64,000 bases of DNA from Thioclava sediminum. GTDB lineage: Bacteria > Pseudomonadota > Alphaproteobacteria > Rhodobacterales > Rhodobacteraceae. The notes beneath the pieces are model-generated. The model was not told where the DNA came from, searched no databases, and saw nothing but the letters and a program-made list of their open reading frames with translations. The stretch spans positions 806,001 to 870,000 of the forward strand of contig NZ_MPZV01000001.1 in NCBI RefSeq assembly GCF_002020355.1. The letters run 5' to 3'. The first letter of the stretch is position 1; every line of letters starts with the position of its first letter. Both the position numbers and the translations under genes were made by a program. Below, one piece after another: positions 28,359 through 59,273 of the stretch.

Positions 28359-29212
28359 AGCCCGTGGCTGCGGTCGTAGGCGTTGGGCGCAGGCGGCGCC
28401 CAGCCTTCGGGCGCTGATTTCGGGCGGTAGATTTCGACGCCCAGCGGGTAGCAGGCCGCCGTATCCGAGCTGTGCTCGGACGAGCAATCCCCGCCCGGAC
28501 AGGCCGAGAGCACGCCCAGCAGATCGGACTCCGCGAAGAATTCGAGGTAATCGCCGGGGCGCACCGGGCTCGCCTTCATGAAATACTGCCCGGTGTCGCG
28601 CGTGAAGCCGGTGCACATGAAGACGTTGAGCACGTCATGGACCAGCGCCTCCGTCTCGCGCAGCGGCAGATCGCGGGCCTCGGCCAGCGCGCGGGTCAGA
28701 TTCGAATGGCAGCAATGGTGATACTGCCCGCCATCGGACAGCAGGCAATGCGTGTAGGGATCGCAGCGTGTCCCGATCACGTCATGGACCGAGCCGCCGA
28801 AGGCGTCGATGCCATACCAGTCGAGCGTGTCCTCGGTGATCGTCGCCAGCGGACGCATCGTCGGAAAGCCCGACCACATCCGGTCGCCGCGGCTCAGATG
28901 CGTGCCATGCAGCGCGCGCGTCTTGCCCGAATAGAACCGCTCTGACAGATCCGCCGAGAACAGGTTCAGATCGCCCACCTGCGGCCCCTCGACCGAAGTG
29001 ATGCGGAAGAAATGGCCGGCGGGCACGTCGAAAGCCAGCGCCTCGCGCGGGGGCACGCGCAGATCGGCGATCTTCTCCCAGCTCTCACGCGCGGCGCGAT
29101 AGGCGGACAGATCCGGCGCGGGCAGCGCGTCGGTCGGGTAACAGATCACCGGCGCGATATCGCGGCGGGCTTCGGCGTCTTCAGGTGCGGCGTGCTCGGG
29201 CGTCGGATGCAT
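28355..29212 (-). CDS. urea carboxylase-associated (DUF1989) family protein
   Basis: A 285-residue protein of the DUF1989 family. Conserved features are AFDVPAGHFFRITSVEGPQV, DLNLFSADLSERFYSGKTR, GTRCDPYTHCLL with its Cys and His, YHHCCHSNL (a likely metal-binding cluster), NVFMCTGF and SACPGGDCSSEHS. Relatives sit beside urea carboxylase genes, but no urea genes are near this copy. The many Cys/His suggest a metal-binding enzyme; some relatives act in guanidine or urea catabolism. The ATG at 29212 is followed immediately by MHPTPEHAAPED and preceded by GGAGG-like sequence. Confidence 0.85.
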   Translation of the reverse strand: MHPTPEHAAPEDAEARRDIAPVICYPTDALPAPDLSAYRAARESWEKIADLRVPPREALAFDVPAGHFFRITSVEGPQVGDLNLFSADLSERFYSGKTRALHGTHLSRGDRMWSGFPTMRPLATITEDTLDWYGIDAFGGSVHDVIGTRCDPYTHCLLSDGGQYHHCCHSNLTRALAEARDLPLRETEALVHDVLNVFMCTGFTRDTGQYFMKASPVRPGDYLEFFAESDLLGVLSACPGGDCSSEHSSDTAACYPLGVEIYRPKSAPEGWAPPAPNAYDRSHGL

Positions 29213-29696: not shown

Positions 29697-30473
29697 TCAG
29701 ACGACCCGGTTGACCTGCATCCGCTTGATCTCGGCGATCGCTTTCGCCGGGTTCAGACCTTTCGGGCAGGTCTTGGTGCAGTTCATGATCGTGTGGCAAC
29801 GATAGAGCTTGAAGGGGTCTTCGAGCTGATCGAGACGCTCTGCCGTCGCTTCGTCGCGGCTGTCGATGATCCAACGATAGGCGTGCAGCAGCGCTGCCGG
29901 GCCGAGATATTTGTCACCGTTCCACCAGTAGCTCGGGCACGAGGTCGAGCACGAGGCGCACATGACGCACTCATACAGACCGTCGAGCTTCTTGCGGTCC
30001 TCGATCGACTGGCGCCATTCCTTCTCGGGACGGTTCGTCTTGGTCTCGAGCCACGGCATGATCGACGCGTGCTGGGCGTAGAACATGGTCAGGTCGGGGA
30101 TCAGGTCTTTCACCACCGGCATGTGCGGCAGCGGGTAGATCTTCACGTCGCCCTTGACCTCGTCGAGGCCGTAGATACAGGCCAGCGTGTTGATCCCGTC
30201 GATGTTCATCGCGCAGGAGCCACAGATGCCTTCGCGGCAGGAGCGGCGGAAGGTCAGCGTCGGGTCGATCTCGTTCTTGATCTTCAAGAGCGCGTCGAGA
30301 ACCATCGGCCCGCACTTATCCATGTCGATGAAATAAGTGTCGAGACGCGGGTTCTCCCCGGTATCCGGGTCCCAGCGATAGATCTGGAACTTGCGGATAT
30401 TCTTGCCATCCGGCTTCGGCCAGGTCTTGCCGACGCGGATCTTGGAATTCTTCGGAAGCGTGAACTGAACCAT
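29697..30473 (-). CDS. sdhB: succinate dehydrogenase iron-sulfur subunit
   Basis: A 258-residue iron-sulfur subunit of complex II, which passes electrons from the flavoprotein to ubiquinone at the inner membrane. The [2Fe-2S] ligands are in [15 protein letters not shown] with a later Cys, and the [4Fe-4S] and [3Fe-4S] ligands in [16 protein letters not shown] and [12 protein letters not shown]. All clusters are complete. It is the last gene of sdhC-sdhD-sdhA-lipoprotein-sdhB and has its own ribosome binding site AAGGGG. Confidence 0.98.
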
Positions 30474-30490
30474 GGTTGGTCCCCTTTCCG

Positions 30491-30778
30491 TCAGTACGAA
30501 TAGAGCGGCCGCGTGGGCATTCGGCCGGATTTTCTGAAAACGCAGGAGTCGTAGGCCGCAGAGGGATCGCCCTGCACATAGGCCCCGACATTGAGCTCGA
30601 CCTTCATGTTCGAGCGGAAGCCGTCATTGGTCACCCCCATGCCCGCCTCGCCCGAGATGGGCGGTTTGGGCGCAAACTGGGCGTAGCACTGGCGCTCGGC
30701 CTGCTCGACCGGAATAGGGCCGCAAGCGGCAAGGCTAAGCCCTGCCGCGAGAAGCCCATATGCCGGTGCGTGACGCAT
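30491..30778 (-). CDS. small lipoprotein inside the sdh operon
   Basis: A 95-residue protein with a lipobox (GLSLAAC, Cys near residue 19), so probably a periplasmic-facing lipoprotein. The mature part is short and polar with two further Cys (ERQCYAQF and YDSCVFRK), which may form a disulfide. Its start overlaps the sdhA stop (ATGA at 30778-30780) and it ends 18 bp before sdhB, so it is transcribed and probably coupled with succinate dehydrogenase. I do not know a function; a role in complex II assembly or in envelope sensing of respiration is conjecture. Confidence 0.8.
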
Positions 30779-32583
30779 CAGTAGACCCGCTTCTTCGGCG
30801 CGATCTTCTTGATCTCGATCCCGCCCTGATCCTCGGGGGTCAGCGGGTCCATGTGGACCGGGCGGAAGGTCAGATCGACATTCGCGCCTTCCACATGCAT
30901 GATCGAGTGCTTGCGCCATTCGGTGTCGTCGCGATCGGGATAGTCCTCGTGGGCGTGCGCCCCGCGGCTTTCCTTGCGCGCCTCGGCCCCGACGATGGTC
31001 GCCAGCGCGTTCGGCATCAGGTTCTCGAGTTCCAGCGTTTCCATCAGGTCCGAGTTCCAGATCAGCGAGCGGTCGGTGACCTTGAGATCGTCGAGCTTGG
31101 CGGCGACCGCCTTCATCTTCTCGACACCCTCGGCCAGCGTCTTGTCGGTGCGGAACACCGCCGCATCCGCCTGCATCGTGCGCTGCATCTCGTCGCGCAG
31201 CTCGGCAGTCGGCGTGCCGCCATCGGCGTAGCGCACCTTGTCGAAGCGCTCGAAGATCGCATCGATCTTGGCTTTCGGGATCACCGGGTTGGACGCATCC
31301 GCGTCGACGACCTTGCCAGCGCGGATCGCAGCGGCACGGCCGAAGACCACGAGGTCGATCAGCGAGTTGGAGCCCAGACGGTTCGCACCGTGCACAGACG
31401 CCGAGCCCGCCTCGCCCACGGCCATCAGGCCGGGCACGATCGCATCGGGGTCGCCCTCTTTCGGGTTGATGACCTCGCCGTGGTAGTTCGTCGGAATGCC
31501 ACCCATGTTGTAGTGCACGGTCGGCAGAACCGGGATCGGCTCTTTGGTGACGTCGACGCCGGCGAAGATCTTCGCCGATTCCGAGATCCCCGGCAGACGC
31601 TCGGCCAGGGCTTCCGGCGGAAGGTGGCTGAGGTTGAGGAAGATGTGGTCCTTGTGCTCGCCCACGCCGCGGCCTTCGCGGATCTCCATGGTCATGCAGC
31701 GCGAGACCACGTCGCGCGACGCCAGATCCTTATAGGTCGGCGCATAACGCTCCATGAAGCGCTCGCCTTCGGAGTTGGTCAGGTAACCACCTTCGCCGCG
31801 TGCGCCTTCGGTGATCAGGCAGCCCGAGCCGTAGATGCCGGTCGGGTGGAATTGCACGAATTCCATGTCCTGCAGTGCGAGACCGGCCCGCGCGACCATG
31901 CCACCACCGTCGCCGGTGCAGGTATGGGCCGAGGTGGCCGAGAAGTAGGCGCGACCGTAACCGCCGGTCGCCAGCACAACCATCTTCGCGTTGAAGACGT
32001 GCATCGTGCCGTCGTCGAGCTTCCAGCAGACGACGCCCTGACACTGCCCGTCATCGGACATGATCAGGTCGATCGCGAAATACTCGATGTAGAACTCTGC
32101 GTTGTTCTTCAGCGACTGACCGTAGAGCGTGTGCAGGATCGCGTGACCGGTGCGGTCCGCGGCGGCACAGGTGCGCTGCACGGGCGGGCCTTCACCGTAT
32201 TCGGTAGTGTGGCCGCCGAAGGGACGCTGGTAGATCTTGCCCTCTTCGGTGCGCGAGAACGGCACGCCGTAATGCTCGAGCTCGTAGACGGCCTTGGGGG
32301 CGTGACGCGCGAGGTATTCCATCGCGTCGTTGTCGCCGAGCCAGTCCGAGCCCTTGATCGTGTCGTACATGTGCCACTGCCAGCTGTCCGGGCCCATGTT
32401 GCCCAAGCTGGCGGCGATACCGCCCTGTGCGGCGACCGTGTGCGAGCGGGTCGGGAAGACCTTGGTCACGCAGGCGGTGCGCAGGCCTTGTTCGGCCATG
32501 CCGAGCGTGGCGCGCAGACCCGAGCCACCGGCGCCGACCACGACCACGTCGTAATTATGCGTTTCGTATTCGTAAGCAGCCAT
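30778..32583 (-). CDS. sdhA: succinate dehydrogenase flavoprotein subunit
   Basis: A 601-residue catalytic subunit oxidising succinate to fumarate. The FAD-binding Rossmann motif is [13 protein letters not shown] at residues about 13-25, the covalent flavin His is in [10 protein letters not shown], and active-site residues are in [20 protein letters not shown] and [13 protein letters not shown]; the C-terminal part contains [16 protein letters not shown]. The start at 32583 ([16 protein letters not shown]) is the family standard. It sits between sdhD (13 bp upstream) and the small lipoprotein gene. Confidence 0.98.
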
Positions 32584-32596
32584 TATCTCGTCCCGT

Positions 32597-32989
32597 TCAG
32601 TTGCCCAGCAGAAGGCCGATGAAGACCATCTTGCCGAGTGCATAGAGTGCGGTCGCCATGATCACGTAAGCCAGCGAATGCATCGCGATCTTGGTCGCCT
32701 TTGCGGCGGTGCCGTGGATGTAGTCCTCGATCCAGATCTCGGTGCCCTTCGCGAAGTGGCGCATGCCGACGATCACGACCAGCGCGGTCAGGATGGCCGG
32801 GAAGGGCTTCGAGAAGGTCGTGATCACGGTCTGCTGATCGGCGCCGAGCGTGGTGCCGACGATGTAGAGCCAGGTCGGGATCATGAAGGCGAGAGCCACG
32901 GCCGAGGCCGACATCCACCAGTGATGCTCGGGGCCGGTGCCCGAGGCGCCCTTGCCCACGGCGCGCTTGCGGTCGGTGAGGTAACGCAT
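32597..32989 (-). CDS. sdhD: succinate dehydrogenase membrane anchor subunit
   Basis: A 130-residue protein with three predicted transmembrane helices ([57 protein letters not shown]). [19 protein letters not shown] contains the His expected to ligate haem b and residues near the quinone site. With SdhC it anchors complex II in the cytoplasmic membrane. It is 11 bp after sdhC. Confidence 0.93.
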
Positions 32990-33000
32990 GAGGGCCTCCG

Positions 33001-33390
33001 TCAGAATTGGATGATGATGAGGGTCAGCACGGTCAGCACGACCGAACCGATGGTGCAGATCCAGCCGAGCATCTCGGCGGATTTGATGTCCATGTATTTA
33101 CCCGCATCGAAGATGAGGTGCCGGATGCCGGCGAGGTAGTGATACCAGACGCCCAGCAGCGACAGAGTGAAGACGAGATCGCCGAACCACGAGGTCGCGA
33201 TCGCGTTCACGAAGTTGAAGTAGTCGGGGCTGGTCGCGGCGGCGAGAAGCCACCAGACGAGCAGCAGCACGCCGACGATGATGCCGTTGCCGGTGATCCG
33301 CGTCATGATCGACGAGAAAGACGTCATCTGCGGGCGGTAAATTTGAAGGTGCGGGGAAAGCGGACGCTCAACCTGTTTCGCTTCAGCCAT
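33001..33390 (-). CDS. sdhC: succinate dehydrogenase cytochrome b556 subunit
   Basis: A 129-residue membrane subunit. The N-terminal signature RPLSPHLQIYRPQMTSFSSI contains the Ser/Arg of the quinone pocket, three hydrophobic helices follow, and YHYLAGIRHLIFD holds the haem-ligating His. The ATG at 33390 follows AAAGGGA; a longer version from 33444 lacks support. It is the first gene of the operon, with a 170-bp leader that ends at the paired GTGATCAC sites. Confidence 0.95.
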   Translation of the reverse strand: MAEAKQVERPLSPHLQIYRPQMTSFSSIMTRITGNGIIVGVLLLVWWLLAAATSPDYFNFVNAIATSWFGDLVFTLSLLGVWYHYLAGIRHLIFDAGKYMDIKSAEMLGWICTIGSVVLTVLTLIIIQF

Positions 33391-33563
33391 GATCGGTCCC
33401 TTTTCGCTGGGCTCGGCGCTCTCGTCGGCCTCTATCGGAGGCACGCGCTGGCGCGGAGCTGGCCGGAATTGGCTCTTTTAGTAGCGTAAATTTCTCCCAA
33501 GTCACGGGGGGCAAGCTTGAAAACCTGTCATTTACGCATAAAGAGCGGCGAAAAATTCGCTTT

Positions 33564-33594
33564 GTGATCACATAAATTCTGTGCGTGATCACAT
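33564..33594. promoter_or_regulatory. paired GTGATCAC operators upstream of sdhCDAB
   Basis: TGTGATCACA (33564-33573) and CGTGATCACA (33585-33594), with centres exactly 21 bp (two helical turns) apart, located 174-204 bp upstream of the sdhC start. The same pair, with the same spacing, precedes sucC, and a single copy precedes the GntR gene at 58.6 kb. Confidence 0.75.
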
Positions 33595-38759: not shown

Positions 38760-38786
38760 TCGAAAGCTAGGACTGATCCAATCTTG

Positions 38787-38818
38787 GGGCGCGCCTTCGT
38801 AGGCGCGCCCTTTGTTTT
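38787..38818 (+). terminator. intrinsic terminator of mdh
   Basis: GGGCGCGCC-TTCGTA-GGCGCGCCC followed by TTTGTTTT. Confidence 0.9.
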
Positions 38819-38828
38819 GGAGAGTGCC

Positions 38829-40088
38829 ATGTGTTCCGCCCGTCTCGCCCCGTGTCTTGCCGTTCTTCTCGCCCTTTCACCGGTCACCACGCATGCGCAA
38901 GACGGGCCGGTGACCGCCAAGATCGCGCGAAGCGAGGCACCTGCCGCCGATCCAATCTCGGCGCGGATCGGGGCGGAGGGGATCGCGCCGGTGCTGGCCG
39001 ACCTGCAATCGCAGGACGCGCTTGACCCGAAGGATCGTTTCGCGCTCGGCGGGCTGGAATTCCTCGCGAGCCTCGAGGCGACGATGCGCTGGCAGCTGGA
39101 AGCAGGCGGAGCCCGTGTGCTGATGCCCTTCGTGGGCAACCTTCCCGGCAGGCGCGACGCGCCGCGCGAAACCTTCACCGCCGACGCGGTCCCGCGCGAA
39201 AGCGAGGCGCTGATCGCCGGCATGGATCGCGCCAAGACCGCGCTCGACGGGCTGGCCGATGGACCGGAGTTCGGTCTTGCGATCGACCTGAACGATCTCT
39301 GGTTTGACCTGAACGGCAATGGCACGCGTGACGACGGCGAGGACGCGGTGACGCTGTTGCGCGGCGCCTTCATGCCCCGCGCACCGGAGGCCGAAGCCGG
39401 TGCTTCGCGGATCGTGCGCTTCGACAATGCGGATGCGGCCTGGCTTTCGGCCTATACGCATCTGGTCTCGGGCGTGGGCGAGCTAATCTTGGCCTTCGAC
39501 CCTGAACCGGCCATCGCCCGCGTGATGGCCACCTATGCGAAACTCGTGGACGCGCGCGACAAGGCGATGGGGACCGGGCAAGCCACGTCGCTGGACGGTC
39601 TGATGATGTTCAGCTTCATCGACCCGGCGGCGGCGGTGCTCGATATGCTCCACCAGCAGCCCGATCCGACGCGCACCCGTGCCGCGCGGGATCATTGGCT
39701 GGCGATGATTGCGGATAACCGGCAGTTCTGGGATCTGGCTGAGGCCGAGACCGACAATCAGGCGGAATGGATTCCGAGCGACGCGCAGGATCAGGCGCTT
39801 GGCGTGGAATTTCCCGACGGTCTGGGAGAAACATGGCGGGGCGTGCTGAGCGATGGCGAGGCGCTGCTGACGAGCGAGAAGTCCTTCCCCTTCTGGCGTG
39901 TGCCGGTCGGGGTCGATCTGGGCGCGTGGCTGGAAAATCCCGCGCCGCTGCCGCTGACCGGAGTGGTTCAGGGTTGGGCCCTCGATCCCTATTTCACCGA
40001 CACGCCGATGCTGACGCCCGAGAACTGGACGCGCTTTTCGCGGTTGGTTGGCGGACGCACCGGCATGATGATGTTCACGCTGAACTGA
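38829..40088 (+). CDS. secreted hypothetical protein with an EF-hand-like calcium loop
   Basis: A 419-residue protein with a signal peptide (CLAVLLALSPVTTHA, cleavage near residue 24). Residues about 160-175 read DLNGNGTRDDGEDA, the D-x-N-x-N-G-x-x-D-x-x-E spacing of a calcium-binding EF-hand/dockerin-like loop. The rest is alpha-helical with no catalytic motif that I recognise. It is separated from mdh by a terminator, has GGAG before the ATG, and overlaps the convergent glycosyltransferase by 14 bp. Confidence 0.75.
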   Translation: MCSARLAPCLAVLLALSPVTTHAQDGPVTAKIARSEAPAADPISARIGAEGIAPVLADLQSQDALDPKDRFALGGLEFLASLEATMRWQLEAGGARVLMPFVGNLPGRRDAPRETFTADAVPRESEALIAGMDRAKTALDGLADGPEFGLAIDLNDLWFDLNGNGTRDDGEDAVTLLRGAFMPRAPEAEAGASRIVRFDNADAAWLSAYTHLVSGVGELILAFDPEPAIARVMATYAKLVDARDKAMGTGQATSLDGLMMFSFIDPAAAVLDMLHQQPDPTRTRAARDHWLAMIADNRQFWDLAEAETDNQAEWIPSDAQDQALGVEFPDGLGETWRGVLSDGEALLTSEKSFPFWRVPVGVDLGAWLENPAPLPLTGVVQGWALDPYFTDTPMLTPENWTRFSRLVGGRTGMMMFTLN

Positions 40089-41139
40089 CGAGCGGCTCCG
40101 GGTCGAAACCGAATTCCTCGCGCAGCCGCCCGATCAACTCGGCCTCATGGAGAAGCAGCGCGCGATCGAAGGCGGCGGGCGAAAGATCGACCTCGTCGCC
40201 GAACAACGCGCGGGTCTCAGTCGCGATCTTCACTTCGGGCCGGATCAGCAGCTCGTGGGATTCCAGCTCGTCGGCCTCGTAATCGCGCATCCCCTGCACC
40301 TCCCACCAGAGGCTCATCAGCTCGGCGGGATCGGCGGCGCGCTCGGCGGCCTCTGCGAATTGCGCCTTGCGGGACCCGACATAGGGAACGGGCTGTCCCT
40401 TCACCTTGGTCGTCGCGCGGCGCAGCATCTTGAGGATGAAGTGCAACGGCGTCAGCCCGTCGAAATGCATCAGCCGACCATTATAGCTGGGCCGATAAGG
40501 CAGATCGTTTTCCTTGCTGTCCCAGTCTTTCAGCGGGTAATGCACCCCGATCGCATAGCTGCGCCCAGCCCGCACGACAGGTTTTCCGGCGACATGACCC
40601 GCGAGGCCCTTCTTTAGAAAGCGCGACCGGAGACCGTAGAACATCAGCCCGTCCTCCTGAAACCCGTCCCAGCGCCGCCTAAAGACACCGCTAAAGATGT
40701 CCGGGCCGGGGTTGCGGTCGAGATAGCAGCGTTCGTCCACTTCGAGACGCAGCCACGCTTTCTGCTCGCCCGTCTTCGCCAGCTCCCATTCGAGCGGGCG
40801 CGCGAGGCTCACGAACTCGTCCGCGTCGCAATGGATCATCCAATCCAGGTTGGTCTCGTTCAGCGCGCGGGTCGCATTGTATTTCTGGCGGCCCTGATGG
40901 CGCGCGGGCCGTTTCTTCCGCCAGCTGCGCGCCCAGTCGTCATCGCCGGAATGGTGAATGCACGCGCCGTCGACCGGGGCGAGCAGCGCCTCGGCTTCGG
41001 GGTTCGGGCGATCAAAAAAGACATGGACCTCGCTCGCGCCGATGCTCAGATGATGCGCGACATAGGCGGCCACCAGCGCCGCGGGCTCGTCCACCGTCGC
41101 CACCACGCCCCAGCGCGGCATATCTTGCCCTTGCGTCAT
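40075..41139 (-). CDS. glycosyltransferase family 2-like protein
   Basis: A 354-residue protein. The N-terminal half is a GT-A-like fold: WGVVATVDEPAALVAAYVAHH, then MIHCDADEFVSL with the DxD metal-binding motif (DAD). The conserved FYGLRSRFLKKG and DSKENDLPYRPSYNGRLMHFDG segments match the family of Glyco_tranf_2_4 proteins common in Rhodobacteraceae. The sugar and acceptor are unknown; no polysaccharide cluster is adjacent. Cytosolic, no membrane helix. Confidence 0.75.
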   Translation of the reverse strand: MTQGQDMPRWGVVATVDEPAALVAAYVAHHLSIGASEVHVFFDRPNPEAEALLAPVDGACIHHSGDDDWARSWRKKRPARHQGRQKYNATRALNETNLDWMIHCDADEFVSLARPLEWELAKTGEQKAWLRLEVDERCYLDRNPGPDIFSGVFRRRWDGFQEDGLMFYGLRSRFLKKGLAGHVAGKPVVRAGRSYAIGVHYPLKDWDSKENDLPYRPSYNGRLMHFDGLTPLHFILKMLRRATTKVKGQPVPYVGSRKAQFAEAAERAADPAELMSLWWEVQGMRDYEADELESHELLIRPEVKIATETRALFGDEVDLSPAAFDRALLLHEAELIGRLREEFGFDPEPLVSSA

Positions 41140-41234: not shown

Positions 41235-41265
41235 TGTGATCACACCCTTCCGCGCTGTGATCACG
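41235..41265. promoter_or_regulatory. paired GTGATCAC operators upstream of the suc operon
   Basis: TGTGATCACA (41235-41244) and TGTGATCACG (41256-41265), centres 21 bp apart, 110-140 bp upstream of sucC. A possible promoter between them and the gene is TTTGTC (41312-41317) and TAGAAC (41335-41340), 17 bp apart. Confidence 0.75.
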
Positions 41266-41374
41266 TATGTCGCTTTTTCCGGGCGAGTGGGGCAGAATGT
41301 CGCGATTTCGGTTTGTCCGCCCCGCTTAACAGCCTAGAACCCCCTCAAATCGCACCAGCATGGGGTATCCAAGG

Positions 41375-42568
41375 ATGAATATCCACGAATATCAGGCCAA
41401 ACAGCTTCTCAAGAGCTATGGCGCACCGGTCTCGGACGGCCGCGTCGTCCTCAAGGCCGAAGAAGCGAAGACCGCAGCCAGCGAACTCGATGGTCCGCTC
41501 TGGGTCGTCAAGGCGCAGATCCACGCAGGTGGCCGCGGCAAGGGCCACTTCAAGGAAGCCGAAGCCGGCGAAAAGGGCGGTGTCCGCCTCGCCAAATCGG
41601 TCGAAGAGGCTGAAACGCTCGCCAAGCAGATGCTCGGCAAGACGCTCGTGACGCACCAGACCGGCCCGGCGGGCAAGCAGGTCAACCGCATCTATATCGA
41701 AGACGGTTCCGACATCGAGCGCGAACTGTATCTCGCTCTGCTCGTCGACCGTGTGACCTCGCGTGTCTCGATCGTCTCCTCGACCGAAGGCGGCATGGAC
41801 ATCGAGGAAGTCGCGGCGAACACGCCCGAGAAAATCCTCAGCTTCTCGATCGACCCGGCAACCGGCTACCAGCCGTTCCACGGTCGCCGCGTCGCCTTCT
41901 CGCTCGGCCTCGAAGGCCCGCAGGTGAAGCAGATGGTCGGCCTTCTCGGCAAGCTCTACCAAGCCTTCGTCGAGAAGGACATGGAGATGCTTGAGATCAA
42001 CCCGCTGATCGTCATGACCGACGGTAACCTCAAGGTTCTCGACGCCAAGCTCGGCTTCGACGGCAACGCCGTCTACCGTCACTCGGACATCGCCGCCCTG
42101 CGCGACGAAACCGAGGAAGACAGCAAAGAGCTCGAAGCGTCGAAATACGACCTCAACTACATCGCGCTCGACGGTGAGATCGGCTGCATGGTGAACGGCG
42201 CTGGCCTGGCAATGGCCACGATGGACATCATCAAGCTCTACGGCGCCGAGCCCGCGAACTTCCTCGACGTTGGCGGTGGCGCCACGAAAGAGAAAGTGAC
42301 CGAAGCGTTCAAGATCATTACCTCGGACAAGAACGTCAAAGGGATCCTCGTGAACATCTTCGGCGGCATCATGCGCTGCGACATCATCGCCGAAGGCGTG
42401 ATCGCTGCGGTGAAGGAAGTCGGCCTCGAAGTGCCGCTGGTTGTCCGCCTCGAGGGCACCAACGTCGAAAAAGGCAAGGAAATCATCGCGAATTCCGGCC
42501 TGAACGTCATCGCCGCCGACAACCTGTCGGATGGCGCAGAAAAAATCGTCAAAGCGGTGAAAGGCTAA
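41375..42568 (+). CDS. sucC: succinyl-CoA synthetase beta subunit
   Basis: A 397-residue ADP-forming subunit (ATP-grasp fold plus CoA-ligase-type C-terminal domain). It begins [16 protein letters not shown], followed by [20 protein letters not shown] in the nucleotide-binding domain, [13 protein letters not shown], and [18 protein letters not shown] and [14 protein letters not shown] in the C-terminal domain. It converts succinyl-CoA to succinate with substrate-level ATP synthesis. First gene of sucC-sucD-sucA-sucB-(MAPEG)-lpdA, with paired GTGATCAC operators in front. Confidence 0.98.
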
Positions 42569-42573
42569 GAATC

Positions 42574-43461
42574 ATGGCAGTTCTCGTCAACGAAAACACC
42601 AAGGTCATCTGCCAGGGCTTCACCGGCTCGCAGGGCACCTTCCACTCCGAGCAAGCAATCGCGTACGGCACCAAGATGGTCGGCGGCGTGACGCCCGGCA
42701 AAGGCGGCCAAGAGCATCTCGGCCTGCCGGTCTTCAACTCGGTCCACGAGGCGAAAGCCAAGACCGAAGCGAACGCCTCGGTGATCTACGTTCCGCCGCC
42801 CTTCGCGGCTGACTCGATCCTCGAAGCGATCGACGCGGAAATGGAGCTGATCGTCTGCATCACCGAAGGGATCCCGGTCCTCGACATGATGAAGGTCAAG
42901 CGCGCGCTGATCGACAGCAAATCGCGCCTGATCGGCCCGAACTGCCCCGGTGTCATCACGCCCGACGCCTGCAAGATCGGCATCATGCCCGGCCACATCC
43001 ACAAGCGTGGTTCGGTCGGCGTCGTGTCGCGTTCGGGCACGCTGACCTATGAGGCGGTCAAGCAGACCACCGATATGGGTCTGGGCCAGTCCTCGGCCGT
43101 CGGCATCGGCGGTGACCCGATCAAGGGCACCGAGCATATCGACGTGCTCGACATGTTCCTCGACGATCCGGAAACGGAATCGATCATCATGATCGGTGAG
43201 ATCGGTGGTTCGGCGGAAGAAGAAGCCGCGGAATTCCTCGCCGAGCAGAAGAAGAAAGGTCGCTGGAAGCCGACCGCTGGCTTCATCGCTGGCCGCACGG
43301 CCCCTCCCGGCCGCCGCATGGGCCACGCCGGCGCGATCGTCGCGGGCGGCAAGGGCGACGCGGAATCGAAGATCGAAGCCATGAAATCGGCCGGTATCGT
43401 CGTCGCAGACAGCCCCGCTACGCTGGGCGAAGCCGTGATGAAAGCGATCAAGGGCGAATAA
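42574..43461 (+). CDS. sucD: succinyl-CoA synthetase alpha subunit
   Basis: A 295-residue CoA-binding subunit. CoA-binding segment near the N-terminus ([19 protein letters not shown]), GGVTPGKGG, the phosphohistidine loop in [17 protein letters not shown] (active-site His), and [11 protein letters not shown]. It pairs with SucC, whose stop is 5 bp upstream. Confidence 0.98.
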
Positions 43462-43530
43462 GCCCTATTGAGACAGGCGGGGTCGCGGCGCACGCGGCCC
43501 TGCATCCTGACCAAGGAAAGGACCGGACCC

Positions 43531-43962
43531 ATGTCGCTGCGGATCGCACGGCGCGCCTCCCTCCCCGTTTCGGGGACGGTCGCATGCGCCCTGCTTGAAA
43601 GCAGCGAAGGGGACCGGTCTTCTTCTGCGACGGAGCGCGTCGCCAAACGCACCGGAAAGCCCGCCCTTGGCGTCCTCGCTCCGGTCGCGGGCGTCCGCTC
43701 ACCGGTCGCAGTTCAGACTGCGCGCATCCCTGCCCTGCATGGAAGTCCTGACATCAGCACCTACATCATTGACCCAGAAGGCAATATGCCCGGGACGACA
43801 GGTGCCGGTTTCGGAGTATCCGTGATGGCCCCGCGCGCGAAGGAAAGGACCCTACATCATGTCCCGTTCCACCCTTGTATCCGTCGCGAGGGCGTTCGCG
43901 CGCCGCGCGACCCCGCCACCACACGCGCCCAGCGTTTAACCAACCGTTCAATGGGCCGCTGA
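43531..43962 (+). CDS. uncertain ORF between sucD and sucA
   Basis: A 143-residue frame (MSLRIARRASLPVSGTVACA at the start) in the 552-bp gap between sucD and sucA. The ATG is preceded by AAGGAAAGGACC, a good ribosome binding site. The translation is arginine- and serine-rich, of low-complexity character, and resembles no family I know. It could be a real fast-evolving protein, a leader, or a chance open frame of GC-rich DNA; the identical 12-base ribosome binding site is repeated at 43840 in another frame. Confidence 0.3.
   Translation: MSLRIARRASLPVSGTVACALLESSEGDRSSSATERVAKRTGKPALGVLAPVAGVRSPVAVQTARIPALHGSPDISTYIIDPEGNMPGTTGAGFGVSVMAPRAKERTLHHVPFHPCIRREGVRAPRDPATTRAQRLTNRSMGR
43859..43939 (+). 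CDS. possible 26-residue peptide ORF upstream of sucA
   Basis: ATG at 43859 preceded by AAGGAAAGGACC (43840-43851) encodes MSRSTLVSVARAFARR... with TAA at 43937. It is basic and short. It lies 75 bp before sucA and might be a leader peptide; the only support is the strong ribosome binding site, an exact copy of the one at 43513. Confidence 0.25.
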   Translation: MSRSTLVSVARAFARRATPPPHAPSV

Positions 43963-44013
43963 TAGACGTTCGAGTTCCACAGATCCCTGTTTCACCGACC
44001 GAAGGTGAGGAAA

Positions 44014-46971
44014 ATGACCGACCAATCCCCCAACGACCAGTTCAATGCCTCGCAGTTCCTGCAAGGCGCGAATGCCGAATATGTCGAGCAGCTCTATGCC
44101 AAGTTCGCCGAAGATCCGTCTTCGGTCGATACCGCCTGGGCTGCCTTCTTCGCCTCGCTCGGTGATCCCGATCAGGACGTGAAGAAATCCGCCGAAGGCG
44201 CAAGCTGGGAGCGTCGCGACTGGCCGCCGGTAGTCGCCGACGACCTGACCGCCGCGCTGACCGGCGAATGGCCCGCCGCCCCTGCCGAGGGAAAGGCCGC
44301 TGGCGACAAGATCAAGAAGAAGGCCGCCGAGGCTGGCGTTCCGGTCGATGAAGCCGCAGTCAAACGCGCCGTGCTGGACTCGATCCGCGCGCTGATGATT
44401 ATCCGCGCCTACCGTATCCGCGGCCACCTCGCCGCCGATCTCGACCCGCTGAACATGCGCGAAACCGGTCAGCATCCGGAGCTCGATCCGAAGAGCTACG
44501 GCTTCACCGATGCCGACATGGATCGCCCAATCTTCATCGACAACGTGCTCGGCCTCGAGATCGCCTCGATGCGCCAGATCATGGATATCGTGAAGCGCAC
44601 CTATTGCGGCACCTTCGCGCTGCAATACATGCACATCTCCGATCCCGAGCAATCGGCCTGGCTGAAAGAGCGCATCGAAGGCTACGGCAAGGAGATCACC
44701 TTCACCAAGACCGGCCGCCGCGCGATCCTCAACAAGCTCGTCGAGGCGGAAGGGTTCGAGAAGTTCCTGCACGTCAAATACATGGGCACGAAGCGGTTCG
44801 GCCTTGATGGTGGCGAAGCGCTGATCCCCGCGATGGAGCAGATCATCAAGCGGGGCGGTCAGCTCGGCCTGCAAGAGGTCGTGGTCGGCATGCCCCACCG
44901 CGGTCGCCTCTCGGTCCTCGCCAACGTGCTGCAAAAGCCCTATCGCGCGATCTTCCACGAATTCCAGGGCGGCTCGTTCAAGCCCGAGGACGTGGACGGC
45001 TCCGGCGACGTGAAATACCACCTCGGCGCTTCCGCCGACCGTGAGTTCGACGGCAACAAGGTCCACCTGTCGCTGACCGCGAACCCCTCGCACCTCGAGG
45101 CGGTGAACCCGGTCGCGCTCGGCAAGGTCCGTGCCAAGCAGGATCAGCTGGCTGACCGTTCGGACCGCTCCAAGGTTGTCTCGGTGCTGCTGCACGGGGA
45201 TGCGGCCTTCGCCGGTCAGGGCGTCGTGGCCGAGTGCTTCCAGCTCTCGGGCATTCGCGGCCACCGCACGGGCGGCACGATCCACCTCGTCGTGAACAAC
45301 CAGATCGGCTTCACGACCGCGCCGCACTTCTCGCGCACCTCGCCCTATCCGACCGATCTCGCGCTGATGGTGGAAGCTCCGATCTTCCACGTGAACGGCG
45401 ACGATCCGGAGGCCGTCGTGCACGCAGCCCGCGTCGCGACCGAGTTCCGCCAGAAGTTCCACAAGGACGTGGTCATCGACATCTTCTGCTACCGCCGCTT
45501 CGGTCACAACGAAGGCGACGAGCCGATGTTCACCAACCCGGTGATGTACAAGTCGATCAAGACCCACAAGACCACGCTGCAGCTCTACACCGAGCGTCTC
45601 GTGGCTGACGGCCTGATCCCCGAGGGCGAGATCGAGGATATGAAAGCCTCGTTCCAGTCGCATCTCAACGAGGAGTTCGAAGCCGGTAAGGTCTTCAAGC
45701 CGAACAAGGCCGACTGGCTCGACGGTCGCTGGTCCGGGATGGAGCAGGAAAAGAGCGAATACGAGCGTGGCACCACCGCGATCGCGCCCGAGACCTTCGA
45801 AGAGGTCGGCAAGGCGCTCGTGACCGCGCCCGAGAAATTCGCGCTGCATAAGACGGTCGGGCGTCTGCTCGAGAACAAGAAGCAGATGTTCGAGACCGGC
45901 AAGGGCTTCGATTGGGCGACCGCCGAGGCACTGGCCTTCGGCTCGCTTCTGACCGAGGGCTATCCGGTCCGTCTCTCGGGTCAGGATGCTACGCGCGGCA
46001 CCTTCTCGCAGCGCCACTCGGCGCTGGTCAATCAGGACAACGAAGACCGCTACTACCCGCTGAACAACATCCGTGAAGGTCAGGCCCGCTACGAGGTGAT
46101 CGACTCGATGCTCAGCGAATACGCGGTGCTCGGGTTCGAATACGGCTACTCGCTGGCGGAACCGAAGGCGCTGACGCTCTGGGAAGCGCAGTTCGGCGAT
46201 TTCGCCAACGGCGCGCAGATCATGTTCGACCAGTTCATCAACTCGGGCGAGCGGAAATGGCTGCGCATGTCGGGTCTCGTCTGCCTGCTGCCGCACGGTT
46301 TCGAAGGTCAGGGCCCCGAGCACAGCTCGGCCCGTCTGGAGCGTTTCCTGCAGCTGTCGGCGGAAGATAACTGGATCGTCGCGAACTGCACGACGCCGGC
46401 GAACTACTTCCACATTCTGCGCCGCCAGATCCACCGCGACTTCCGCAAGCCGCTGATCCTGATGACGCCGAAATCGCTTCTGCGTCACCCCAAGGCGGTC
46501 TCGACCACGGAAGACTTCACCACCGGGTCCAGCTTCCACCGCGTGCTGTGGGACGACGCCCAACAGGGCAATTCGGATCTGGAGCTGAAGTCCGACGACA
46601 AGATCAAGCGCGTCGTGATGTGCTCGGGCAAGGTCTATTACGACCTGCTGGCACAGCGCGACGAACGCGGGCTGGACGATGTCTACCTGCTGCGTCTGGA
46701 ACAGTTCTACCCGTTCCCCGCGCAGGCGGTCACCAAAGAGCTGACCCGCTTCAAGAATGCCGAGATCGTCTGGTGCCAAGAGGAGCCGAAGAACCAAGGC
46801 GCTTGGTTCTTCGTCGAGCCCTATATCGAATGGGTCCTCGCCAAGATCGACGCGAAACATGCCCGTGCGCGCTATGCAGGCCGTGCAGCTTCCGCCTCGC
46901 CCGCGACGGGTCTGGCAAGCCGCCACAAGGCCGAGCAGGACGCGCTCGTCAACGATGCACTGGAGGGTTGA
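44014..46971 (+). CDS. sucA: 2-oxoglutarate dehydrogenase E1 component
   Basis: A 985-residue thiamine diphosphate-dependent E1 subunit decarboxylating 2-oxoglutarate and transferring succinyl to the lipoyl groups of SucB. The N-terminus (NASQFLQGANAEYVEQLYAKF) is the E2-binding arm. ThDP-binding residues are around HGDAAFAGQGVVAEC and HLVVNNQIGFTT, and active-site His in GMPHRGRLSVLANV. The C-terminal transketolase-like half contains the RGTFSQRHSALVNQ and GFEYGYSL motifs. The start follows GAGGAAA. Cytosolic, part of the 2-oxoglutarate dehydrogenase complex. Confidence 0.98.
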   Translation: MTDQSPNDQFNASQFLQGANAEYVEQLYAKFAEDPSSVDTAWAAFFASLGDPDQDVKKSAEGASWERRDWPPVVADDLTAALTGEWPAAPAEGKAAGDKIKKKAAEAGVPVDEAAVKRAVLDSIRALMIIRAYRIRGHLAADLDPLNMRETGQHPELDPKSYGFTDADMDRPIFIDNVLGLEIASMRQIMDIVKRTYCGTFALQYMHISDPEQSAWLKERIEGYGKEITFTKTGRRAILNKLVEAEGFEKFLHVKYMGTKRFGLDGGEALIPAMEQIIKRGGQLGLQEVVVGMPHRGRLSVLANVLQKPYRAIFHEFQGGSFKPEDVDGSGDVKYHLGASADREFDGNKVHLSLTANPSHLEAVNPVALGKVRAKQDQLADRSDRSKVVSVLLHGDAAFAGQGVVAECFQLSGIRGHRTGGTIHLVVNNQIGFTTAPHFSRTSPYPTDLALMVEAPIFHVNGDDPEAVVHAARVATEFRQKFHKDVVIDIFCYRRFGHNEGDEPMFTNPVMYKSIKTHKTTLQLYTERLVADGLIPEGEIEDMKASFQSHLNEEFEAGKVFKPNKADWLDGRWSGMEQEKSEYERGTTAIAPETFEEVGKALVTAPEKFALHKTVGRLLENKKQMFETGKGFDWATAEALAFGSLLTEGYPVRLSGQDATRGTFSQRHSALVNQDNEDRYYPLNNIREGQARYEVIDSMLSEYAVLGFEYGYSLAEPKALTLWEAQFGDFANGAQIMFDQFINSGERKWLRMSGLVCLLPHGFEGQGPEHSSARLERFLQLSAEDNWIVANCTTPANYFHILRRQIHRDFRKPLILMTPKSLLRHPKAVSTTEDFTTGSSFHRVLWDDAQQGNSDLELKSDDKIKRVVMCSGKVYYDLLAQRDERGLDDVYLLRLEQFYPFPAQAVTKELTRFKNAEIVWCQEEPKNQGAWFFVEPYIEWVLAKIDAKHARARYAGRAASASPATGLASRHKAEQDALVNDALEG

Positions 46972-46975
46972 ATAG

Positions 46976-48511
46976 ATGTCCACTGAAGTCCGCGTTCCCA
47001 CGCTCGGAGAGAGCGTCACGGAAGCCACCGTCGCCACCTGGTTCAAGAAGCCCGGCGACACGGTGGCCGCCGATGAGATGCTCTGCGAACTCGAAACCGA
47101 CAAGGTGACCGTCGAAGTGCCGAGCCCCGCGGCCGGTACGCTTGGCGAGATCGTGGCCGCTGAGGGCGAGACCGTCGGCGTCGATGCGCTTCTCGCGACG
47201 ATCGAAGAGGCCGGCGCCAGCCCCGCGCCGAAGAAGACAGAAGACAAACCGGCGGAAAAACCCGCCCAACAGCCCCAATCGAACGAGGGAAAAATGACCG
47301 ACGTTATGGTGCCCAGCCTTGGTGAATCGGTCACCGAGGCAACTGTGTCGACGTGGTTCAAGAAGGTCGGCGACACGGTCGCGGCCGACGAGATGCTCTG
47401 CGAGCTGGAAACCGACAAGGTGTCCGTCGAAGTGCCGTCTCCCGCGGCTGGCGTTCTCAAGGAGATCGTCGCCGAAGAAGGCACGACCGTCGATGCCTCG
47501 GCCAAGCTTGCCGTGATCGCCGAAGGCGAATCCGGTGGCGCCTCCGACAGTGCCCCCGCGAAGGAAGAGGCCAAATCCGAAGCCCCCGCTGCCAGCAGCA
47601 AGGGCGGCAAGGATGTCGAGGATGCACCTTCGGCCAAGAAGCTGATGGCCGAGAAGGGTATCGACCCGGCCTCCGTTCAGGGGTCTGGCAAAGACGGCCG
47701 GATCATGAAGGAAGACGTGGCCAAGGCCGAAAACGCGCCGAAGCAGGCGTCGGTCAACGTCGCCTCGACGCCCTCGCAAGCGCCGCGCGGCCCGGTCAAT
47801 GCCGATGACGCGTCGCGCGAAGAGCGCGTGAAGATGACCCGCCTGCGTGCGACCATCGCCAAGCGCCTCAAGGACTCGCAGAACACCGCCGCGATGCTGA
47901 CCACCTATAACGAGGTGGACATGTCGGGCGTCATGAACCTGCGCAACGAGTACAAGGACCTGTTCAACAAGAAGCACGGCGTGAAGCTCGGCTTCATGTC
48001 TTTCTTCGTGAAGGCCTGCTGCCACGCGCTCAAAGAGGTCCCGGAAGTCAACGCCGAGATCGACGGCAACGAGGTCGTCTACAAGAACTACGTCCACATG
48101 GGCGTGGCCGTGGGCACCCCGAACGGGCTCGTCGTGCCGGTCGTGCGCGATGCCGACCAGATGAGCTTCGCCTCGATCGAGAAGACGATCGCCGAGATGG
48201 GCACCCGCGCCCGTGACGGCAAGCTCTCGATGGCCGAAATGCAGGGCGGTTCGTTCACCATCTCGAACGGCGGCGTCTACGGCTCGCTGATGTCCTCGCC
48301 GATCCTCAACCCGCCGCAATCGGGTATCCTCGGCATGCACAAGATCCAGGAACGTCCGATGGTCGAGAACGGCCAGATCGTCATCAAGCCGATGATGTAT
48401 CTCGCGCTGAGCTACGACCACCGTATCGTCGACGGCAAAGGCGCCGTGACCTTCCTCGTGCGCGTCAAGGAAGCGCTGGAAGATCCGCGCCGCCTGCTTA
48501 TGGACCTGTAA
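46976..48511 (+). CDS. sucB: 2-oxoglutarate dehydrogenase E2 (dihydrolipoyl succinyltransferase) with two lipoyl domains
   Basis: A 511-residue E2 subunit. Two lipoyl domains of nearly identical sequence follow each other: residues 1-78 and about 107-183, each with the lipoylated Lys in CELETDK. An Ala/Pro/Lys linker follows, then a peripheral subunit-binding domain ([14 protein letters not shown]...[13 protein letters not shown]) and the acyltransferase domain with the catalytic DHR region ([14 protein letters not shown]). Many E2o proteins have one lipoyl domain. An internal ATG at 47294, preceded by GAGGGAAAA, matches a normal E2o start ([18 protein letters not shown]), so a 405-residue single-domain form may also be made. 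sucA ends 4 bp upstream. Confidence 0.96.
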
Positions 48512-48550
48512 GGTAAGCGACTTGGGACGAAGGCGGCGGCCCCCGCCTCC

Positions 48551-48577
48551 TTCGCTCTTGCCAAATATCCTCGGGGG
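48551..48577. repeat. single copy of the GGATATTTG dispersed element
   Basis: Minus-strand reading GAGGATATTTGGCAAGAGCG shares GGATATTTG, CAAG and CGAA with the inverted repeat at 23035-23106. It lies in the 117-bp gap between sucB and the MAPEG gene. Confidence 0.4.
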
Positions 48578-48628
48578 GTCCGGGGGGCAGACAGCCCTCC
48601 GGTCCGCCCTCTCCACCGGGAGCGACCC

Positions 48629-49021
48629 ATGACCCCCGAACTCACCGTGCTCATCCTCGCGATCCTGCTCCATCTGGGGCTGATGGTCGCCTATTCGGTC
48701 AAAGCGAATACCGAGCTCGGCACGAAATACCCCGTCTCTCCGCGCGACAGGACGCCGCCGCCGATCTCGACCCTGCTCGGTCGGATTCAGCGCGCGATGA
48801 ACAACTCCTTCGAGGGGCTTATCCTCTTCGCCCCCGTCGCGCTGGTCATCGGCCTGACCGGGCAGTCGAGCGCCGCCACTGCGGCCTTCGCCTGGATCTT
48901 CCTGATCGCGCGGGTTCTCTACATTCCGTCCTATCTGCTGGGCTGGGTGCCGTGGCGCTCGCTCATCTGGGGCTTTTCCTTCTTCGCAATTCTGGCGCTG
49001 GCAGTTGCCGCGCTGATCTGA
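48629..49021 (+). CDS. MAPEG family membrane protein
   Basis: A 130-residue protein with four hydrophobic helices and the bacterial MAPEG pattern: RIQRAMNNSFEGLILFAPV (the RaxxNxxE signature), then the ARVLYIPSYLLGWVPWRS block. MAPEG proteins use glutathione or lipid-like substrates in eukaryotes; bacterial ones are mostly uncharacterised. Interposed between sucB and lpdA without its own visible promoter, so probably co-expressed with the 2-oxoglutarate dehydrogenase genes. Confidence 0.88.
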   Translation: MTPELTVLILAILLHLGLMVAYSVKANTELGTKYPVSPRDRTPPPISTLLGRIQRAMNNSFEGLILFAPVALVIGLTGQSSAATAAFAWIFLIARVLYIPSYLLGWVPWRSLIWGFSFFAILALAVAALI

Positions 49022-49069
49022 CCTCCCGGCGCGAGGCCCCCTCGCGCCCCAATCCAAGGAGCAAGAACA

Positions 49070-50458
49070 ATGGCTGACTATGATGTGATCGTGATCGGCG
49101 GCGGCCCGGGCGGCTATGTCTGCGCCATCCGCTGCGCCCAGCTGGGCCTGAAAACCGCCTGTGTCGAAGGCCGCGACAGCCTCGGCGGCACCTGCCTCAA
49201 CGTGGGCTGCATCCCCTCCAAGGCGCTGCTGCATGCCACGCATCAGCTGCACGAAGCCGAGCATAACTTCGCCAAGATGGGCCTGAAGGGCAAATCGCCT
49301 TCGGTCGATTGGAAGCAGATGCTGACCTACAAGCAGGAAGTCATCGACGGCAACACCAAGGGCATCGAGTTCCTGTTCAAGAAGAACAAGATCGACTGGC
49401 TCAAGGGCTGGGGCTCGATCCCGGAAGCCGGCAAGGTGAAAGTGGGCGAGGACGTCCATAACGCCAAGAGCATCGTGATCGCCACCGGCTCCGAACCCTC
49501 TTCGCTGCCGGGCATCGAGATCGACGAGAAGACCGTCGTGACCTCGACCGGCGCGCTGTCGCTCAACAAGATCCCGAAGTCGATGGTCGTCATCGGTGCG
49601 GGCGTCATCGGTCTGGAAATGGGCTCGGTCTATGCCCGTCTCGGCGCGGATGTAACCGTCGTGGAATATCTCGACGCGATCACCCCCGGCATGGACGGCG
49701 AGGTTTCCAAGAACTTCCAGAAGATCCTGTCCAAGCAGGGCCTGAAATTCGTCATGGGCGCCGCCGTCCAGAGCGTCGACGTGAAGAACGGCAAGGCCAC
49801 GGTGAACTACCAGCTGCGCAAGGATGAGAGCGAGGCTTCGATCGAAGCCGAAACCGTTCTCGTCGCGACCGGCCGCAAGCCCTATACCGATGGTCTGGGC
49901 CTTGAGGGCGTCGGCGTCGAGATGCTGCCGCGCGGTCAGGTGAAAACCGACGCGCATTGGCAGACCTCCGCGAAGGGCATTTACGCGATCGGCGACGCGG
50001 TCACCGGTCCGATGCTCGCCCACAAGGCCGAGGACGAAGGCATGGCCGTCGCCGAAGTCATCGCGGGCAAGCATGGCCACGTGAACTACGACGTGATCCC
50101 GAGCGTGATCTACACCACCCCGGAAGTCGCCTCGGTGGGCCAGACCGAAGAGGCGCTCAAGCAGGACGGCCGCGCCTACAAGGTCGGCAAGTTCTCCTTC
50201 ATGGGCAATGGCCGCGCCAAGGCGGTGTTCCAGTCGGACGGCTTCGTGAAGCTGATCGCGGATAAGGAAACCGACCGCATCCTCGGTTGCCACATCATCG
50301 GTCCCGGCGCGGGCGACCTGATCCACGAGATCTGCGTGGCGATGGAGTTCGGCGCCTCGGCGCAAGACGTGGCGCTGACCTGCCACGCCCACCCGACCTT
50401 CTCCGAAGCCGTGCGCGAAGCCGCGCTCGCCTGCGGCGACGGCGCGATCCACGCCTGA
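49070..50458 (+). CDS. lpdA: dihydrolipoyl dehydrogenase (E3)
   Basis: A 462-residue flavoprotein disulfide reductase that reoxidises the dihydrolipoyl groups of SucB with NAD. FAD motif [14 protein letters not shown], redox-active disulfide [19 protein letters not shown] motif [22 protein letters not shown]-contacting IYAIGDAV, and the catalytic [10 protein letters not shown] at the C-terminus. It closes the suc operon and is followed by a strong terminator. Confidence 0.98.
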
Positions 50459-57925: not shown

Positions 57926-58582
57926 TTACCAGCCACGCTGGGCCAGGTGACGCAAACCCTGGGTCACATCGGTGCGCACGGCCAATCGAAGCGCCGGTTC
58001 GTCGCCCGCACGCAGAGCCGAGAGAATCATCCGGTGGTGCCGCGGCGGCTCGTTGCGCTGCAGCTTGGTGTAGACGGCGCGCATCGTCGGCCCCAGCTGC
58101 AGCCAGACGGTTTCGATCACCGCGAGCATCGCGGGCGCCTGCGCGCGCAGATAGAGCGTGCGGTGGAATTCGAGGTTCGTGCGGATGTAGCCGACCGCAT
58201 CCTGCTTCGCGACGGCCTCCGCATTGGCGACGTTGATCGCGCCGAGACGGTCGATCAGCGCGAGGTGCGCCCGCGGCAGGGCGCGGGCCGACAGCTCCGG
58301 CTCGATCAGTGCGCGCAGCGCCGCCAGTTCCTCGATCCGCTCGTTCGACAGTTCCGGCGTGGCGACGCGGCCCGAACTCGACAGCGTCAGCGCCCCTTCA
58401 GCGACCAGCCGCCGCAGCGCCTCGCGCGCGGGGGTCATGGAGACACCGTATTGCTTGCCCAAGCCCCGCAGCGTCAACGCGGTGCCCGGCAGCAACTCCC
58501 CCACCATGATCTGCTGACGCAAGGCGCGGTAGAGCCGATCATGCGCTGCGGTCTCGATGGGGCGTGTGGAAATCGTGGTCAT
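57926..58582 (-). CDS. GntR-family (FCD) transcriptional regulator, candidate TCA-operon regulator
   Basis: A 218-residue regulator. The N-terminal winged helix (LYRALRQQIMVGELLPGTAL, YGVSMTPAREALRRLVAEG) is followed by a VanR/FadR-type FCD effector domain with the likely metal/ligand His in NLEFHRTLY and in PPRHHRMILSALRAGD. FCD regulators bind palindromes as dimers and respond to carboxylic or sugar acids. A GTGATCAC palindrome lies directly before its start (58591-58600), and the same palindrome occurs in pairs upstream of sdhC and sucC, so it is the natural candidate to bind them. It is 31 bp downstream of a YgjP gene and may share its transcript. Confidence 0.88.
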   Translation of the reverse strand: MTTISTRPIETAAHDRLYRALRQQIMVGELLPGTALTLRGLGKQYGVSMTPAREALRRLVAEGALTLSSSGRVATPELSNERIEELAALRALIEPELSARALPRAHLALIDRLGAINVANAEAVAKQDAVGYIRTNLEFHRTLYLRAQAPAMLAVIETVWLQLGPTMRAVYTKLQRNEPPRHHRMILSALRAGDEPALRLAVRTDVTQGLRHLAQRGW

Positions 58583-58590
58583 GCGCTTTT

Positions 58591-58600
58591 TGTGATCACG
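58591..58600. promoter_or_regulatory. GTGATCAC operator in front of the GntR regulator
   Basis: TGTGATCACG, 9 bp upstream of the regulator start, i.e. within or next to the ribosome binding region, suited to autorepression. Single copy; no second site at 21 bp. Confidence 0.65.
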
Positions 58601-58613
58601 TTAGCGGCCGGGG

Positions 58614-59273
58614 TCAATCTCGAAACCGGATCGCATGCAGCGCGGACCCTTCACGCTTGAGCCAGGCGCGCTCTGTCTTGAAGCTCGGACGCAGGGCTTC
58701 GACGACGCGCCAGAAGGCGGGCGAGTGATTCATCTCCTCGAGATGCGCGACCTCATGGGCCGCGACGTAGTCGAGCACCTCCGGCGGCGCCATGATCAGG
58801 CGCCAGCTATAGGAGAGCGCCCCGGTGGAGCTGCACGAGCCCCAGCGCGAGCGCGTATCGCGAATCGTGATCTTGGCGAAGTCGCGCCCGATCTCGGAGG
58901 CATAGCGCGCGCTGGCCGCATGGAGCCGCATCCGGGCCGCGTGTTTGAAAAAGGTCTCGACCCGCACGCCCAGACGCGCTGGGTCTTCGGGCACCAAGAG
59001 CCGCGCGCCGTCGATCTTCGGGCTGCGCAATCGTGCGGGCTCCAATGTCAGCATCTGCCCCTCGAAGGGGATACCTTGCCCGAATCGTACCGCCTGCGCG
59101 GGCGGAATCGCACCGAGGGTCTTGCGCAGCCATTCGGTTTGCGAGCGCGCGAAGGCCAAAGCCTCGCGCTCGGACGCACCCCGCGGGATCGTGAGCGCCA
59201 CCCGGCCGTCCACCCGCGACACCCGCAACGAGAACCTGCGCGCACGCCCGGAGCGGCGCAGAACCAACTCCAC
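58614..59273 (-). CDS. YgjP-type M48 metallopeptidase-like protein
   Basis: A 219-residue protein of the YgjP/WLM-like zincin family with the HExxH motif in YVAAHEVAHLEEMNHSPAF, preceded by the ITIRDTRSRWGSCSSTGALS block typical of YgjP. Start codon is GTG at 59273 (MELVLRRSG). E. coli YgjP is poorly characterised. Cytosolic, no signal peptide. It lies upstream of the GntR regulator. Confidence 0.88.
   Translation of the reverse strand: MELVLRRSGRARRFSLRVSRVDGRVALTIPRGASEREALAFARSQTEWLRKTLGAIPPAQAVRFGQGIPFEGQMLTLEPARLRSPKIDGARLLVPEDPARLGVRVETFFKHAARMRLHAASARYASEIGRDFAKITIRDTRSRWGSCSSTGALSYSWRLIMAPPEVLDYVAAHEVAHLEEMNHSPAFWRVVEALRPSFKTERAWLKREGSALHAIRFRD

Follow-up and report, generated by a model that had tools for sequence, protein, structure and literature searches.

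Which protein recognizes the 10-bp palindrome TGTGATCACA that stands before the sdh and suc operons of Thioclava sediminum, and how would it act on these operons and on its own gene? The question arises in a window of 64,000 nucleotides (the whole stretch of DNA analysed), for which the original prediction had proposed that an FCD-type GntR regulator carries the operator at its own start and is a candidate master regulator of the local TCA-cycle operons, perhaps undescribed in this group. The regulator gene, its upstream neighbour, and the elements related to them are as follows.

57926..58582, minus strand: akgR orthologue, GntR/FCD transcription factor of 218 aa (Pfam, orthologue comparison)
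58591..58600, minus strand: single candidate operator at akgR, sense strand CGTGATCACA, core 58592–58599 (exact match and conservation)
58612..58617, minus strand: predicted −35 box of akgR, TTGACC (spacing conserved in relatives)
58614..59273, minus strand: ygjP-like metallopeptidase gene, upstream neighbour of akgR (Pfam YgjP-like, 1.2e-47)

The regulator and its orthologue in Rhodobacter sphaeroides

The reading frame of akgR runs from an ATG at 58582 to a stop codon at 57926 on the minus strand, and its 218-aa product matches the Pfam GntR (2.8e-15) and FCD (1.9e-16) domains, in agreement with the proposed FCD-type GntR regulator. An identical protein is encoded by Thioclava sp. JE_KL1, and the next-best match to AkgR in the organism's own genome is only 32% identical. 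Residues Asn136, His140, His183, and Asp205 are invariant across the AkgR alignment (34 sequences); we take them to be the metal-binding positions of FCD proteins, Asn and Asp presumably replacing two of the usual ligands. In the window, akgR is adjoined by rpmB, the gene for ribosomal protein L28, and is separated by 31 bp from ygjP, a match to which is present in 79 out of 80 akgR loci.

We take RSP_0981 to be AkgR of R. sphaeroides 2.4.1, and RSP_0979 to be sdhB of the same organism. Imam et al. reportedly found in 2015 that AkgR directly activates TCA-cycle genes, and the name itself suggests that 2-oxoglutarate, or a signal related to it, is sensed. In the literature, RSP_0981 is a predicted regulator of sdh, sucCD, and the genes for 2-oxoglutarate dehydrogenase (PMC4344238), and the reported sites of AkgR, designated an activator, include GTGATCAC (PMC6365646).

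The genome labelled here as R. sphaeroides (G094) was recognized by the 24-base RSP_0489 site printed in PMC4344238: among 390 genomes, G094 alone has this site, exact and within its published interval on chromosome 1; two more 24-mers from the table, likewise exact, fall within their own chromosome-1 intervals (three of the table's five sites were checked). The G094 orthologue is 81% identical to Thioclava AkgR over 210 aa, has ygjP beside it, and lies about 750 bp after sdhB, the longest listed ORF between them being of 152 aa; this order of sdhB, ORF, and orthologue fits RSP_0979, RSP_0980, and RSP_0981. Paired GTGATCAC operators are found in G094 at both sdh and suc, as in Thioclava; the genomic location differs, R. 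sphaeroides akgR being near sdhB and Thioclava akgR beside rpmB.

Judging by these comparisons, the Thioclava gene is the orthologue of AkgR, given our assumption that RSP_0981 is AkgR: it encodes a GntR/FCD protein orthologous to the RSP_0981 position, GTGATCAC is present at sdh, suc, and akgR, and the sites occur before sdhC and before sucC, the head of sucCDAB-lpd. The regulator and its regulon are, then, already in print for R. sphaeroides, and the view of the regulator as undescribed has to be dropped, since it fits RSP_0981 (PMC4344238, in part) and GTGATCAC is among the AkgR sites (PMC6365646, in part).

Sites before sdh, suc, and akgR

The window contains three copies of TGTGATCACG, where 0.17 would be expected, and none of 100 shuffles reached three occurrences. 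If as many as two mismatches to TGTGATCACA are tolerated, the window is not enriched (14 sites seen vs. 15.8 expected), and thus we gave weight only to exact and one-mismatch sites. A genome-wide search for exact matches to TGTGATCACR yielded 11 places in 4.13 Mb, five of them in the window, where they span about 25 kb, and six elsewhere, each of the six within an ORF that is 197 aa or longer. As the remaining six sites all fall in ORFs, a wide genomic regulon, as defined by exact sites, was ruled out; the term "master regulator" is too strong for a protein whose exact sites outside ORFs are only those at sdh, suc, and akgR. The paired sites claimed for sdh and suc are indeed present.

33563..33593, minus strand: sdh operator pair, two GTGATCAC cores 21 bp apart
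33478..33505, minus strand: predicted sdh promoter, GTGACT (33505–33500), 16-bp spacer, TACTAA (33483–33478)
29697..33444, minus strand: sdhC, sdhD, sdhA, and sdhB (Pfam and NCBIfam; sdhC start provisional)
41235..41265, plus strand: suc operator pair, two GTGATCAC cores 21 bp apart
41313..41340, plus strand: predicted suc promoter, TTGTCC (41313–41318), 16-bp spacer, TAGAAC (41335–41340)
41375..50458, plus strand: sucC, sucD, sucA, sucB, lpd, and a small ORF at 48629–49021 (NCBIfam)

The sdhD gene is a candidate that passes the Pfam Sdh_cyt threshold and has an NCBIfam score of 40.3, just below the cut-off of 41.8.

To describe the surroundings of the pairs in relatives, 65 out of 128 pair readings from the loci were assigned to sucC or sdhC; the 63 left uncounted should be mainly reverse readings, palindromic pairs being read on both strands. 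In these contexts, which, like the loci, stem from related genomes and hence are not independent, the suc pair ends 97–113 bp before sucC in 38 out of 40 cases, GTGAC is found 57–59 bp downstream of the sdh pair in 17 out of 25 (shuffled 5-mers, at most five out of 25), and CGTTT about 40 bp downstream of the suc pair in 17 out of 40 (shuffled 5-mers, at most seven). The pairs in the window end 48–58 bp before the predicted −35 boxes, and this distance is conserved in relatives. The predicted −10 boxes are weak, and the suc promoter is less certain than the sdh one. Both pairs lie upstream of the predicted promoters, and thus in the position expected for the sites of an activator.

That the same regulator instead represses sdh and suc as well, e.g., as two dimers or a tetramer hindering the polymerase, would be in keeping with the many FCD regulators that are repressors. 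A distant relative, 6z74, which we take to be Atu1419, has a weak sequence match to Thioclava AkgR (31.2 bits). According to the accessible text on Atu1419 from Agrobacterium fabrum (FCD, VanR group), this protein forms a tetramer, recognizes 10-bp palindromes, one of them over a −10 box, has two or more sites in a promoter region, and acts as a repressor; it differs from AkgR in this role, in the palindrome, ATGTATACAT, and in the distance between paired sites, 109–190 bp as compared to 21 bp at sdh and suc (PMC7797058). We nevertheless regard repression of sdh and suc as improbable, given the conserved distance by which the pairs precede the predicted −35 boxes and the designation of AkgR as an activator (PMC6365646, in part).

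The arrangement at akgR is different. As proposed, the motif precedes the regulator's own start: TGTGATCACG occupies positions 58591–58600, and 8 bp separate it from the akgR ATG. In the 190-base stretch around the akgR start, the exact GTGATCAC core is present in 66 out of 80 named orthologous loci, vs. 0–2 out of 79–80 in nine shifted control stretches; Rhodobacter capsulatus is among the species with this operator. The ygjP stop codon sits within the predicted −35 box TTGACC (58617–58612), and in the window this box begins 18 bp ahead of the operator core. TTGAC is found 8–32 bp upstream of the operator in all 66 loci (17–20 bp in 62 of them), and the first ATG lies 8–10 bp downstream of it in 49. 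Assuming a spacer of usual length after TTGAC, the operator would overlap the beginning of the −10 region, and the transcript would begin at the akgR ATG or close to it; the position of the site thus suggests a layout of autorepression.

Alternatively, the site could activate akgR in a positive feedback or serve as a roadblock in a ygjP–akgR transcript, read-through being possible due to the conserved adjacency of the two genes and the short gap between them. The regular succession of TTGAC, operator, and ATG in most loci is the spacing of a promoter with an operator on its −10 region, which makes both variants rather unlikely compared to autorepression.

Autorepression through this site is not a general feature, since the exact operator is missing in 14 out of 80 loci, including three Gemmobacter and two Phaeovulum loci, as well as in R. 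sphaeroides; two of the 14 (L045 and L062, one Phaeovulum and one Haematobacter locus) retain an operator with one mismatch. R. sphaeroides, which is outside the 80 loci, differs from Thioclava in that its akgR promoter has TTGAC and ATG and no exact operator. The spread of the operator among the loci, rather than a tree, suggests that R. sphaeroides lost the site and not that it never had it. We found no published description of the akgR operator in the open-access literature searched, which did not cover Imam et al. 2015.

Co-occurrence of the regulator and the motif

Nearly everywhere in the family, the motif is accompanied by the regulator, and there are few losses by which this link could be broken. 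The exact pair GTGATCAC-N13-GTGATCAC is present in 380 out of 390 family genomes (drawn by order, all belonging to the own family), and the reversed control in none of them; an AkgR match at E<=1e-20 was obtained in 388 (up to seven candidates were scored in each genome). Outside the family, the exact pair is found in two out of 380 genomes and the reversed control in one (385 genomes were drawn across the class, and the five from the own family were set apart). The motif thus passes the co-occurrence check suggested for it with few exceptions, and, together with the presence of sites, these data support the original proposal that it is the regulator's operator and that sdh and suc are likely targets. 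Chance origin of the motif was ruled out by the shuffles, the reversed-pattern control, and the shifted-stretch controls.

Among the ten family genomes without the exact 21-bp pair, six have a variant, namely, exact cores at a 20-bp period (G002, G133, G165, G198, G206) or a 21-bp pair with one core mismatch before sucC (G231). The other four (G110, G227, G141, G232) have neither form: no exact pair with 5–34 bp between the cores was found in them, and none before sucC. No regulator was found in G232, and the best match in G141 is only 33% identical; AkgR homologues of G110 and G227 are only 50% and 48% identical, respectively; in G110, a single site nevertheless precedes the gene for this homologue. 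As just two genomes are without a close orthologue, the evidence from co-loss is thin. Two- and three-mismatch pair matches were also obtained in G002, G165, and G232, and we take them for chance; around the best such match in G232 (9 kb), none of 35 window proteins has a match.

In G110 and G227 (loci L218 and L219), TGGTATACCA is found about 218 bp before sucC in place of the operator pair. This sequence presumably resembles a GntR-like palindrome distinct from that of AkgR, and the suc operon in this genus may have changed its regulator.

Could the motif belong to another protein, for example of the CRP/FNR type, the site near akgR being a coincidence? TGTGA and TCACA resemble CRP half-sites, and both pairs are present in genome G023, in which an AkgR orthologue was not detected. 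The CRP site, however, is TGTGA-N6-TCACA; TGTGATCACA has no spacer between the half-sites, in line with the original distinction from CRP, and a CRP-type site was ruled out for the lack of the six-base spacer. In G023, a run of N stands beyond the ygjP start, where akgR is expected beside ygjP, and therefore we take the missing akgR as a sequence gap, not as a loss. The site is at the regulator's own promoter in most relatives and almost never in the control stretches, and G232 and G141, which are without a close orthologue, are also without the pair. Outside the family, in G535 (locus L150), the operator pair stands before a 31% identical AkgR homologue, which could mean that the motif predates the AkgR orthologue group; near the pair of the second outside-family genome, none of 35 window proteins was matched within 3 kb. 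Similarly, in the accessible part of PMC6365646, PS417_07240 from Pseudomonas simiae, a GntR-like protein 32% identical to AkgR, has a single copy of the palindrome GTGATCAC ahead of its own gene; it differs from AkgR in the proposed control of a deoxyribonate cluster, and its binding is also a proposal there. Taking all this into account, recognition of the motif by an unrelated protein is hardly credible.

Predicted mode of action

We consider it very likely that the AkgR orthologue activates sdh and suc via the pairs and represses its own gene via the single site. An AkgR dimer would bind the 10-bp palindrome. At sdh and suc, two dimers would occupy one face of the helix ahead of the −35 box, with a period of 21 bp (20 bp in some of the relatives), and would, probably cooperatively, activate transcription; relative to the predicted starts (near 33471 for sdh and near 41347 for suc), the site centres are at about −97/−118 for sdh and −87/−108 for suc. 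At akgR, one dimer would sit across the junction between the spacer and the −10 region of a probably leaderless promoter, which would lead to autorepression. By analogy with Atu1419, a distant FCD relative that binds 10-bp palindromes as a tetramer, binding of the pairs by an AkgR tetramer is possible. In an Atu1419-type arrangement with DNA looping, the tetramer bridges two palindromes far from each other, as compared to the 21 bp at sdh and suc. The term "activator" comes from the accessible part of PMC6365646, and the position of the sites fits activation.

A broader generalization, namely, that the layout of sites sets two modes of action (a pair activates, a single site represses), that this circuit is usual in the family, and that R. 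sphaeroides has lost its autoregulatory half, seems to us somewhat better than an even guess. In any case, a published regulator is assigned to an operator pair whose conservation before the TCA-cycle operons of the family is very strong. The new features are the conserved geometry of the pair, its 20-bp variant, and the probable autoregulatory operator missing in the studied R. sphaeroides; if the latter is true, a model of AkgR derived from R. sphaeroides alone would miss a feedback site common to most sampled relatives.

AkgR may not act alone on sdh and the 2-oxoglutarate dehydrogenase genes, since in R. sphaeroides their control has been reported for CceR (PMC11323563, in part). Like AkgR, CceR (RSP_1663) is linked to sdh and other central carbon genes, by report or prediction (PMC11323563, PMC4344238, both in part); it differs in belonging to the LacI family and in having another motif. 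CceR-like sites between the pair and the gene were found in none of 40 suc contexts and one of 25 sdh contexts, the shuffle means being 1.42 and 0.78, respectively, that is, without excess.

In the window, further ORFs lie between mdh and the suc pair (38784–41139), one of them with a glycosyltransferase domain (40075–41139, minus strand); in the R. sphaeroides genome, mdh is about 100 bp from the suc pair. Downstream of sdhB, the window contains a DUF1989 gene (28355–29212), a match to which is also found near sdhB in three Gemmobacter loci (L040, L042, L043).
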